Shown here piece by piece: positions 22,236 through 55,257 of a DNA stretch of 64,000 bases. Under the pieces are notes generated by a model, which was given only the letters and a program-made list of their open reading frames with translations, ran no database searches and was not told the origin of the DNA. Position 1 is the first letter of the stretch, and each line of letters begins with the position of its first letter. The position numbers and the translations under genes were made by a program. This DNA comes from Variovorax paradoxus (lineage in GTDB: Bacteria; Pseudomonadota; Gammaproteobacteria; Burkholderiales; Burkholderiaceae_C), in NCBI GenBank assembly GCA_016806145.1, contig CP063166.1:3844001-3908000 (forward strand), written 5' to 3'.

Positions 22236-22667
22236 CTACGCCAACAGCCGCCCGTGCCGCTGCTCGAGCTCCGCGACCTTGGCGCGCGCCGCGGCGAGCT
22301 CGGCCGAGATCTTGTGCCGCACGGTCACGTCGCAGCCCATCTGGTCGGCCAGCCACACCAGCGGCGCGATGCTGTTCGTCACGCGCATGAAGGCGATGAG
22401 GCGCTTGGCCCACTGCTCGCCCACCCCGCGCATGAACTTCGCCATGTAGCCGTGGCTGATGTGGATGCGATCGGCGATCTGGTAGTGGTCGAGATCCGCG
22501 TGCATCGCGGCCTCCGAGAGCGTCCTGCTGAAGCCAGCGCGCTCGATGAGCTCGAGCTCCAGCACTTCGCCGGCAGGTCCGTGCGTCGTCACCGCGCGGT
22601 CCGCTTTCCAGTGCTTTCCAGCGGTTTCTTGTGGTTTCCATTCGGCGGGTTCAAAACTGCGATCCAT
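22236..22667 (-). CDS. Predicted phage DNA-binding regulator after cro
   Basis: The product is 143 residues from ATG 22667, with GGGAG 11 bases upstream; ATG 22685 is possible. It has an HTH-like middle (HADLDHYQIADRIHISHGYMAKF), a second helical segment (NSIAPLVWLADQMGC) and a C-terminal coiled coil (AELAAARAKVAELEQRH). Its place, third to fourth gene of the leftward early operon, is that of lambda cII. It lies directly downstream of the c4-like RNA, whose U-tract ends 15-32 bases before the start, so it is the most likely target of that element. Confidence 0.55.
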   Translation of the reverse strand: MDRSFEPAEWKPQETAGKHWKADRAVTTHGPAGEVLELELIERAGFSRTLSEAAMHADLDHYQIADRIHISHGYMAKFMRGVGEQWAKRLIAFMRVTNSIAPLVWLADQMGCDVTVRHKISAELAAARAKVAELEQRHGRLLA

Positions 22668-22699
22668 GATTTCTGCGACTCCCATCGCTTCGGTTGATG

Positions 22700-22794
22700 A
22701 AAAAAAGGCCTTGTTGGGCCGCCCTATCCGTTCAGCCCCCTCGCTGGGGAGTCGGCCGGTTGAGGGCCTTGCAGTAGGACGGCCCAACAAGGGC
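22700..22794 (-). ncRNA. Structured RNA resembling phage c4 antisense RNA
   Basis: Read on the minus strand, arms 22792-22775 and 22726-22709 pair at 17 of 18 positions, with one mismatch (22722/22779). The 48 bases between them fold into two short GC hairpins: 22754-22757 with 22765-22768 (7-base loop), and 22736-22740 with 22746-22749. The result is a three-way junction. Seven Us follow at 22706-22700. This layout, in the early operon behind cro, resembles the c4 RNA of P1/P7, P4 and N15, which blocks translation of antirepressor or inhibitor genes. The U-tract could also make it an attenuator. A 27-codon frame (22815-22732) overlaps it. Confidence 0.55.
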
Positions 22795-22824
22795 TCTGAG
22801 TGGGTTCACGTGCATGACGCCGCC

Positions 22825-22926
22825 TTACTCGGCATTGCCGCGGCGCTGGCGGACGCGGTCGTCGAGCATGAGCCCGACAACCACGGCCAGGATCACGAGG
22901 CCAGCCAAGAGGAAGAACGGATCCAC
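22825..22926 (-). CDS. 33-residue single-span membrane peptide
   Basis: GTG 22926 has GGAG 9 bases upstream and follows the previous stop by 3 bases. The peptide has one hydrophobic stretch (FFLLAGLVILAVVVGLML) then a basic tail DDRVRQRRGN. It is the third gene of the leftward early transcript. Its shape (short lumenal end, positively charged cytoplasmic end) fits a small inner-membrane effector, like phage kil or superinfection peptides. No homologue recognised. Confidence 0.45.
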   Translation of the reverse strand: MDPFFLLAGLVILAVVVGLMLDDRVRQRRGNAE

Positions 22927-22929
22927 AGC

Positions 22930-23040
22930 TCAGCGCTCCGGCCGATCGAAGCCGCGGCACAGCAGTTGCGCCAGGCTCCACAGCACGGCGGCAACGACGA
23001 TTGCGGCCGCGCAGGCGCAGGAATGGGCGATGCGGGTCAT
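22930..23040 (-). CDS. 36-residue hydrophobic peptide after cro
   Basis: ATG 23040 lies 3 bases after the cro-like stop. The peptide starts MTRIAHSCACAAAIVVAAVL and ends in a basic tail CRGFDRPER, with one short membrane helix and three Cys. It is tightly packed with the next 33-residue membrane peptide. Too short for family assignment; reality is supported by spacing only. Confidence 0.4.
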   Translation of the reverse strand: MTRIAHSCACAAAIVVAAVLWSLAQLLCRGFDRPER

Positions 23041-23043
23041 GGC

Positions 23044-23274
23044 CTACGCCCCCTCTGCGGTGGGCTCGGGGGCGGCCTGCGCGGGCGTAGCACCGGCGGC
23101 CTCCAGCATCTCGGCCGGCAGGTGCCTTCGAGCGAGGGCTGCGAGAACCCGGTCCTCGATGCGAGCTGGAAGCTCGTCGGGCCATTGCGAGATGGCAGCC
23201 GACGAGATGCCGATTGCTTCAGCGGCGGCAGCGACCGACCCACCGAGCAGTTCAAGAGCGCGAGCTTTGTTCAT
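23044..23274 (-). CDS. Cro-like transcriptional regulator
   Basis: The product is 76 residues from ATG 23274. The HTH spans about 11-33 (GGSVAAAAEAIGISSAAISQ), of the YdaS/Cro type, followed by a short helical end and a disordered Ala/Pro tail. It is divergent from the cI-like gene and separated from it by 73 bases that hold three operator copies. The predicted start point of its promoter lies at or next to the ATG and no ribosome site is visible, so the mRNA may be leaderless. Confidence 0.8.
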   Translation of the reverse strand: MNKARALELLGGSVAAAAEAIGISSAAISQWPDELPARIEDRVLAALARRHLPAEMLEAAGATPAQAAPEPTAEGA

Positions 23275-23281
23275 AGCGCAC

Positions 23282-23309
23282 ATGTTAGCGCGCTTATGTT
23301 TTTTGTCAA
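23282..23309 (-). promoter_or_regulatory. PR-like promoter of the leftward early operon
   Basis: Minus strand: consensus TTGACA (23309-23304), 16 bases, TAACAT (23287-23282). One operator copy (23285-23296) covers the -10 and another (23308-23319) touches the -35, so a bound repressor would exclude polymerase. The +1 would fall near 23275, at the cro start codon. Confidence 0.7.
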
Positions 23310-23346
23310 AGCACGCTTATCTCGCCGTGGCTTCTAATCTTGCTTA
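23285..23346. promoter_or_regulatory. Operator cluster between cro-like and cI-like genes (three sites)
   Basis: Three copies of a 12-bp partly palindromic motif, consensus close to TAAGCRYGCTTA: TTAGCGCGCTTA at 23285-23296, AAAGCACGCTTA at 23308-23319, and a weaker TAATCTTGCTTA at 23335-23346. Spacing is 23 and 27 bases, about two helical turns or a little more. The last copy ends one base before the cI start codon. The same motif recurs at 24570-24623, so these are likely the binding sites for the two regulators, as OR and OL in lambda. Confidence 0.65.
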
Positions 23347-23347
23347 C

Positions 23348-23794
23348 ATGAGCACGCTGGCCGAACGCATGCAGGAGTTCTCGCGCGAGACCGGATGGTC
23401 GATCGCAGAGATTGCTGCGATCGCGAAGGTTTCGCACTCTGCGGTGTCGCAGTGGATGGGCAAGGGTGCCAAGGAAATCAAGTCCATCGCCAAGATCGAT
23501 TCGGCGATTTACTTGGAACGCGCCTCTGGATTCAGCGCATTGTGGCTTGCGAAAGGGCTGGGGCCGCGGAAGGCCGCAATTCAGCCAGCGGCCGCGGCGA
23601 TGACGCTCGAGCAGATGCTTGAGGCCATCGGGCTCGCCCTTGAGAAAGCGCCGGCCCTGGAGGCGCGGCAAGGTGCAGAGTCCATGCTTCAAACCTTCAT
23701 CGCCAATCCGAGTGCCAACATGGATGTCGTACCGCTGATCGCCAGGCGCTTATCGGGGGAGCGGCCGCTCAAGACGGGTACGCACAGTCACTGA
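23348..23794 (+). CDS. cI-like prophage repressor (HTH only)
   Basis: The product is 148 residues from ATG 23348. An XRE-type HTH occupies about 15-40 (TGWSIAEIAAIAKVSHSAVS then QWMGKG). The rest is helical and lacks the Ser-Lys peptidase domain of LexA/CI proteins, so induction by RecA-stimulated self-cleavage is not expected in the usual form. No ribosome site precedes the ATG and a TCTAAT -10-like element lies at 23333-23338, so a leaderless message is likely, as for lambda cI from PRM. Confidence 0.75.
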   Translation: MSTLAERMQEFSRETGWSIAEIAAIAKVSHSAVSQWMGKGAKEIKSIAKIDSAIYLERASGFSALWLAKGLGPRKAAIQPAAAAMTLEQMLEAIGLALEKAPALEARQGAESMLQTFIANPSANMDVVPLIARRLSGERPLKTGTHSH

Positions 23795-55096: not shown

Positions 55097-55257
55097 TACA
55101 CTCGAGCGGGTACGCGACTGGCGATAGGCGCGGTGCCGACAAGGCGCCCGCGCTGACGTGGACTACCACTGGGAAGCGTACCGCCCGCGACGTCGCTCCA
55201 GACGCGCGGGCGATCAGCCGTTCGCCTGGGCAGCCCTTGTTTGGTTGAAGAACAAGG
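55097..55257 (+). promoter_or_regulatory. ZTP (pfl) riboswitch in the glyA leader
   Basis: The leader holds the conserved parts of the pfl motif: CGCGACTGGCGAT (55113-55125), the central pairing around GTGGACTACCACTGGGAAGC, and the second conserved part GCCGTTCGCCTGGGCA (55217-55232). A -10-like TACACT sits at 55097-55102. After the aptamer a 7-bp hairpin CCTTGTT/AACAAGG (55235-55257) has no U-tract, so control is probably at translation start: the site AAAGGA (55269-55274) is 5 bases before the ATG. ZTP/ZMP signals folate shortage, and glyA is a known target. Confidence 0.85.

Follow-up and report, generated by a model that had tools for sequence, protein, structure and literature searches.

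In the window, i.e., the whole stretch of 64,000 nucleotides that was analysed, the minus strand carries in succession a promoter-like site, a cro-like gene, two frames of 36 and 33 codons, a long hairpin and a 143-codon gene (Table 1), followed on the 3' side by genes for a DNA methyltransferase and a DUF1376 protein. Judged by order and spacing, the genes from the cro-like gene to the DUF1376 gene probably constitute one operon. The very short frames situated directly 5' of the hairpin (22930-23040 and 22825-22926, both minus strand) appear membrane-like by eye and have no PHROG match; a very short membrane-like frame (by eye) also lies directly 5' of the hairpin in Variovorax paradoxus 110B (L002; 2754-2846, plus strand), the nearest relative whose DNA was read. 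Elsewhere in the window, a ZMP/ZTP riboswitch (48.8 bits) is located at 55104-55238 on the plus strand.

Table 1. Features of the hairpin locus; positions are counted from the first nucleotide of the window.
Feature	Position	Strand	Basis
cI-like repressor gene, divergent from cro	23348..23794	+	phrog_4 transcriptional repressor, 1.7e-07
Promoter-like site TTGACA-16-TAACAT, 5' of cro	23282..23309	-	sole site found in 22500-23600; mean of 0.1 in shuffles
cro-like gene, first in early operon	23044..23283	-	phrog_409, 9.4e-08; P22_Cro 29 bits, just below cut-off of 30.2
27-codon frame overlapping the hairpin, judged incidental	22732..22815	-	open with same stop in L002 (GTG start)
Rod-like hairpin RNA	22707..22794	-	fold z -3.84
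Apical antisense stretch CCGACUCCC (anti-Shine-Dalgarno)	22747..22755	-	8-nt core predicted unpaired at a mean of 0.84, against 0.25 elsewhere
U7 tract after hairpin, possible intrinsic terminator in Variovorax-like members	22700..22706	-	sequence
Small target hairpin GCGAU-GGGA-GUCGC, GGGA in loop (predicted)	22675..22688	-	98.5% of cells paired, 13 members
Target GGGAGUCG at ribosome-binding site of the regulator gene (predicted)	22676..22683	-	kept or changed together with the tip in relatives
143-codon gene, predicted target and possible HTH regulator	22236..22667	-	phrog_2345 'transcriptional regulator', 6.8e-07

Out of 20 members of alignment A6, 15 match phrog_2345, the family to which the 143-codon gene is assigned. 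No Pfam family above cut-off and nothing from NCBIfam or PADLOC was obtained for this gene, and a fold search with the structure model of the regulator (mean pLDDT 74) returned no match at E<=0.001 and weak HTH resemblances only. The ATG codons at 22685 and 22667 share one frame in the window and in L002. In case of L029 and L033, the upstream AUG is situated 19 and 22 nt (manual count), respectively, from the downstream ATG and is out of frame, and due to this GGGAG was taken as the Shine-Dalgarno sequence of the downstream ATG.

Codons 6-24 of the regulator gene of the window (22652-22596, minus strand) have a third-position GC content of 0.53, compared to 0.95 for the rest of the gene. Except for L079, all genes compared (12 out of 13) have a lower value in this stretch than in the rest, and in some of them GGAAA repeats occur within it. 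The low third-position GC looks as if a nucleotide-level signal were present in the start of the regulator gene. An AAC box (mostly UCAAC; 22697-22693 in the window) is located between hairpin and target and is invariant in 13 out of 13 members (alignment A5), for which no partner or role was found. On the 3' side of the regulator gene, matches to int-alpA RNA (RF02996) slightly below the gathering score were observed in L033 (4159-4226, plus strand) and L035 (3791-3858, plus strand).

Members of the hairpin family

Including the window, 15 distinct members of the family were collected, namely the window, L002, L028, L029, L031, L033, L034, L035, L036, L041, L042, L046, L047, L050, and L079, which comprise the second Variovorax locus (L002), a genome locus from a different genus within the family (L041) and, for the rest, viral contigs. 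In L002, the same element precedes a gene with 71% identity. L041 was found by protein profile and is absent from the RNA model R2, with which it scores 52 bits; L076, a viral-contig record with the same score, was excluded from the counts. The members were retrieved by protein-guided scans of viral contigs, one protein-profile search of genomes and two DNA-pattern scans. A pattern that fixes the standard tip and target gave the first hits to L042, L046, L047, and L050, which are therefore unable to show other tips. Another pattern, from which the tip was omitted, also recovered L046, L047, and L050, and protein similarity led to L042 (as L053) and L050 (as L056). Duplicates were excluded, i.e., L003, L020, and L061 (the contig of the L002 element), L030 (identical to L029), L043-L045, L048, L049, L051, and L080. 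In case of L046 and L047, the RNA is followed by a short frame, different or truncated, in which the N-terminal motif of the regulator is retained: the frame of L046 is devoid of the HTH part, and the contig of L047 ends too soon to show this part.

The element looks rare among genomes. A scan of genome contigs, which reaches close relatives only, gave one locus. With the window's own genome included in each count, the protein profile was positive in 2 out of 399 genomes of the family, and other protein searches in 1 out of 200 genomes of the family and 1 out of 300 genomes of the order. Among predicted proteins, 85 matches to the target protein were obtained, again including that of the window. 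Model R1, built from two sequences, recovered among 399 genomes of the family the window on both strands and two weak matches, L023 and L024, which lie within coding frames and were judged false. Model R2 recovered the window only among 399 genomes of the order, in a search limited to 8 scored candidates per genome, by which members would be overlooked. No match was found when the DNA of the window region was compared with phages and plasmids, nor by tblastn with the relative P0019. Further finds of the DNA patterns were judged to be due to chance, i.e., L026 and L027 as well as L078, L081, L082, and L083, the latter four being without a match to R2.

Seven other groups of target-gene relatives, grouped by eye, revealed no such hairpin: L004/L032, L005-L012, L013/L014, L015/L016, L017, L038, and L039/L040. 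L010, with only 126 nt of upstream sequence, was left out of the R2 scan, and L037 has no upstream sequence.

Fold of the hairpin and pairing of its tip

The closing stem on the minus strand, described in a sequence-only reading of this DNA, was found as stated (22794-22777 with 22724-22707), with one C-C mismatch near its base by eye. Its outer part (22791-22777 with 22724-22710, 15 pairs) is referred to as stem P1. The hairpin region of the window folds at -63.2 kcal/mol, compared to a mean of -48.2 (sd 3.91) for dinucleotide shuffles, and is better than 200 out of 200 of them. Minimum-energy and centroid folds of the window show one extended, bulged rod, the apical region of which is large. 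Thus, of the cloverleaf that the same reading had proposed, the strong fold stands, but the two-armed shape was not confirmed for the window; by minimum energy it is predicted in 5 out of 15 members (L029, L034, L035, L041, and L046), whereas the other 10 (window included) are predicted as bulged rods. Due to the rod fold and the covarying apical stem, the cloverleaf was not favoured in the window; in the five members it may be adopted.

Covariation was assessed in alignment A4 with 13 members, none of which had been chosen by its stem; L041 and L079, recognised later, were left out. In stem P1, 92.3% of the cells are paired, and 12 out of 14 counted pairs are changed on both sides, i.e., compensatory changes in relatives, which had been suggested as a check of the fold, were indeed observed. 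P1 and one inner helix together contain 39 cells changed on both sides, compared to 12.4 in shuffles (reached by 0 out of 500). If the partner is shifted by 1-3 columns, pairing falls from 90.6% to 32-49%. Since G-U cells (14) outnumber A-C cells (4) in P1, the sense strand is favoured as the RNA. With arms placed by hand, L041 keeps 14 of 16 stem pairs and L079 16 of 17. The apical stem of the rod reaches a covariation score of 0.46 versus 0.21 (0 out of 500 shuffles) and is weaker in other respects: the number of its pairs changed on both sides is reached by 76 out of 500 shuffles, and its lowest pair is unpaired in 8 out of 13 members. It nevertheless co-varies more than the CCC-GGG arm of the two-armed drawing, which is nearly invariant, one pair being A-U in three members, C-G in three and unpaired in seven. 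By this comparison of relatives the hairpin is a conserved structured RNA.

An apical loop of exactly CCGACUCCC was observed in L002, L031, L033, L036, L042, and L050. The tip is predicted to be unpaired at 0.73-0.94 in 11 out of 15 members and at 0.22-0.49, i.e., less than half, in the remaining four (L029, L034, L046, and L041). In the window, the tip CGACUCCC (22754-22747) forms 8 Watson-Crick pairs with GGGAGUCG (22683-22676), which contains the GGGAG 5' of the ATG at 22667. The target named as possible in the sequence-only reading, i.e., the start region of the gene beginning at 22667 or 22685, is thus supported, as the tip complements its ribosome-binding site and co-varies with it in relatives. 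The antisense layout resembling that of C4 was likewise borne out, with a hairpin on the same strand that ends 16-32 nt before the matched (A)TGGG.

Taken by itself, the 8-bp match of the window is modest (P 0.10 by shuffling of the hairpin, 0.043 compared to other stretches of the locus). Among 13 members, 100 out of 104 cells (96.2%) of the tip-target register pair, which is reached by 2 out of 500 shuffles, with four of these members having been selected by a pattern for tip and target. Duplexes of a tip with its own target have -26.8 kcal/mol, compared to -24.3 for permuted ones (P 0.0004). Against other stretches of the same locus, the own target stands out in L033, L034, and L046 (P 0.0024 each) and in L028 (0.0047), while values above 0.05 were obtained for L029 (0.11), L035 (0.13), L042 (0.08), and L050 (0.06); a combined P of this test is overstated because the members are related. 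By shuffling of the hairpin only L034 and L046 (0.001) and L033 (0.041) stand out among 13 members, and if G-U pairs are permitted, the longest match of L036 is located elsewhere than at the target.

In some members both sides differ. An altered target is met by an altered tip in L028 and L079 (GUGAUGGGAG-CUCCCAUCAC, 10 pairs), in L034 (15 pairs with one G-U) and in L041 (GAGUGGGAG-CUCCCACUC, 9 pairs), and L046 lengthens the standard match to 13 pairs. The specificity is leaky, since the hairpin of L046 pairs over 12-14 nt with 12 out of 13 targets, its own included, and the target of L041 pairs slightly better with the hairpin of L047 (-23) than with its own (-22). In L033, L034, and L035, the duplexes reach beyond the Shine-Dalgarno sequence on its 5' side, which is not clearly the case in the window. 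The small target hairpin has 3 cells changed on both sides, which is reached by 0 out of 500 shuffles if five pairs are counted and by 66 out of 500 if its both-side cells are counted with four. Judged from sequence comparison, the tip-target match is convincing through the family rather than through the window alone, and hairpin and tip match together represent a probable antisense switch.

Transcription and putative mode of action

We consider it fairly probable that the early operon encodes an antisense RNA in this element, and that the tip of its hairpin prevents translation of the regulator by pairing at the ribosome-binding site of the gene that follows. Transcription from the promoter 5' of cro would yield a transcript containing the long hairpin with an anti-Shine-Dalgarno sequence displayed at its tip, and the hairpin RNA would end at the U-tract or be excised from a longer transcript. 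A loop-loop contact between UCCC of the tip and the GGGA loop of the target hairpin would probably initiate pairing and spread into the adjacent stem; pairing at the ribosome-binding site would then block translation of the possible HTH regulator. We infer a discrete molecule, action in trans as in case of C4, and repression as the outcome.

On the same strand, a small Cro- or YdaS-type HTH protein is encoded upstream of the hairpin in 12 out of 15 members, i.e., in the window, in ten scanned members and in L047. In the HTH scan, all ten members match HTH, Cro or YdaS families at E<0.05, 6 of them over the curated cut-off, and the upstream proteins of L046 and L079 match a phage DNA-binding family in addition. 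No such protein was found for L029 and L033 (one frame scanned each) and L034 (by eye). Due to this predominant association, the RNA is probably made with the early transcript.

The sequence-only reading had assumed two layers of immunity, by a protein and by an RNA. This was not supported, as the sole promoter-like site in 22500-23600 precedes cro, and a lysogen with the cro promoter shut might make little of the RNA since no other promoter-like site was found in this region. Based on the consensus promoter of the window only, the probable role of the RNA would be in timing or limiting the regulator at an early stage of infection or induction, and not in a second immunity layer of a quiet lysogen. 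In a looser promoter scan, 8 out of 15 members had no site within 700 nt upstream. A weak separate promoter for the hairpin RNA is possible.

In 10 out of 15 members (L028, L029, L031, L033, L034, L035, L036, L041, L046, and L079), a short frame of 30-59 codons is present on the opposite strand; its start lies 4-21 nt 5' of the hairpin, and it is read in the direction leading away from the hairpin. A WA motif was recognised by eye in 8 of these 10 frames, and L002 and L047 have opposite frames without the motif. A similar opposite-strand start was seen by eye in relatives without hairpin such as L013. A promoter on the opposite strand between cro and the regulator gene, in the position of pRE in lambda, would explain these frames.

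Relation to C4 and alternative readings

The sequence-only reading had assigned the hairpin to the C4 RNAs. Membership in this Rfam family (RF01695) was rejected: no match was obtained in the window at the gathering score nor, over 22560-22960, at E<=10, and none at E<=5 in the other 14 member loci, whereas the positive controls scored 68.8 bits (c4 of phage P1) and 56.4 and 55.2 bits (L018 and L019 of the host). The latter are two true C4 RNAs of the host genome outside the window, situated at C1:1161092-1161180 (plus strand, L018) and C1:5123373-5123461 (minus strand, L019). An a2 site immediately 3' of C4 is present in phage P1, L018, and L019, in case of L018 and L019 as an a2-like TTGGAAG within 3 nt that is complementary to the hairpin junction, and the b2 site of phage P1 starts 33 nt past the end of c4. 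Excision by RNase P is a further feature of C4 RNAs.

According to PMC5320573 and PMC8546580, C4 of phage P1 is cut from a longer transcript and acts in trans on sites directly 3' of it, by which a ribosome-binding site is occluded. The window element resembles C4 of P1 and P7 in being a long-stemmed hairpin on the same strand just 5' of its target, with complementarity near the ribosome-binding site, and both sit in a phage immunity or early operon. It differs from C4 in that all 15 members lack a match to the covariance model, that a rod with one apical antisense loop (10 out of 15) takes the place of two arms and a junction (a', b'), that the target is, by annotation, a possible HTH regulator after cro instead of icd-ant, and that no promoter-like site other than the one ahead of cro was found in this region of the window.

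In lambda, cII follows cro, and OOP RNA is transcribed from the opposite strand, overlapping its target. Antisense control of the gene after cro is shared with OOP, which controls cII according to PMC12197685; in contrast, the RNA of the window is located upstream on the same strand and has a short match. The same source describes Sar RNA of P22, antisense to ant, as a small phage RNA that blocks the translation start of a regulatory gene, like the one proposed here. No matching family for the window hairpin was found in Rfam 15, and no description of the element in the searches of open-licence papers, among them PMC2864571, PMC5320573, PMC12197685, and PMC8546580.

That the element is a true C4 RNA diverged past the reach of the model is considered very improbable. 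Layout and kind of target are alike, C4 is present elsewhere in the host and 5 out of 15 members are predicted as two-armed, but besides the lacking RF01695 matches, model R2 with filters off scores 0.9 bits at the C4 of L018 and has no match at the C4 of phage P1 or of L019, and no a2-type site was established just after the hairpin. More weight is given to a cis-acting leader, although we regard it as rather unlikely. In this case the tip would pair with the ribosome-binding site of its own mRNA about 50-80 nt downstream in a pseudoknot, and translation of the regulator would be prevented as long as the pairing is not opened by ribosomes, a protein or cleavage of the RNA. Tip and target are located on the same strand in 15 out of 15 members at the short spacing given above, intramolecular pairing requires no separate RNA, and 10 out of 15 members are devoid of a T run of at least 5 in the first 16 nt after the hairpin; with hairpin and target on a single transcript, pairing in cis is equally consistent. 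On the other hand, C4 of phage P1, the best-studied RNA of such layout, acts in trans after processing (PMC5320573 and PMC8546580), and the U7 in the window, L002, and L050 would free a separate RNA.

This tract, at 22706-22700, was confirmed, as was the 27-codon frame opened by the ATG at 22815 and ending at 22732. A GC stem with T7 directly attached occurs in the window, L002, and L050 and is not a family-wide feature, a run of at least 5 T within the first 16 nt being present in 5 out of 15 members. Attenuation, considered in the sequence-only reading, is thus possible where a U-tract exists and was not supported for the remaining members. The consensus terminator scan found none at the hairpin, probably because it permits loops of 3-8 only. 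The hairpin after cro occupies the position of tR1 in lambda, and a strong stem followed by U7 would suit simple intrinsic termination or attenuation before the genes 3' of cro, with the anti-Shine-Dalgarno match as a by-product of GC-rich sequence. This reading is improbable, since the U-tract is not conserved, whereas tip, target and match are, and since covariation, as observed in the stem, the apical stem and the tip-target pairs, is not required of a terminator. Still less can be said for a leader-peptide attenuator, in which ribosomes translating the 27-codon frame would open or close the hairpin, as the sequence-only reading had suggested. In L002 this frame is likewise open and has an identical stop, and a frame of L033 shares KALxRPTPP, mirroring the underlying letters. 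In the other 13 members the 27-codon frame is not retained with its start and stop, L031, L034, L035, L036, and L050 have no frame of at least 15 codons starting near the hairpin, and frames elsewhere have other ends. Between window and L002 substitutions are even over the codon positions (4/5/4, compared to 24/17/38 in the regulator gene from codon 31 on). With no codon constraint and the frame not kept, the leader peptide was rejected and is regarded as scarcely conceivable.

Returning to the antisense RNA of the early operon, it is tempting to speculate, though doubtful on the present comparison, that its members form a separate trans-acting family of phage antisense RNAs, distinct from C4, located after cro in betaproteobacterial phages and divided into loop-target specificity types. 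Proposed types are the standard one (CGACUCCC) and those of L028/L079, L034, and L041. If true, the RNA of each phage would act best on its own type, which would represent an RNA-coded heteroimmunity like that of P1 versus P7. This extended reading was graded lower because the hairpins of L046 and L034 fit several targets and because 5 out of 15 members are predicted as two-armed.

C4 is the classic antisense regulator in temperate phages. The element described here is regarded as a probable phage antisense RNA acting on a ribosome-binding site; it looks like a second family that shares the logic of C4, with hairpin and target match both co-varying, and is absent from Rfam 15. It would provide a testable control point directly 3' of cro in phages for which no studied member was found, and suggests that a search for antisense RNAs between cro and the gene after it is worthwhile in other phages.
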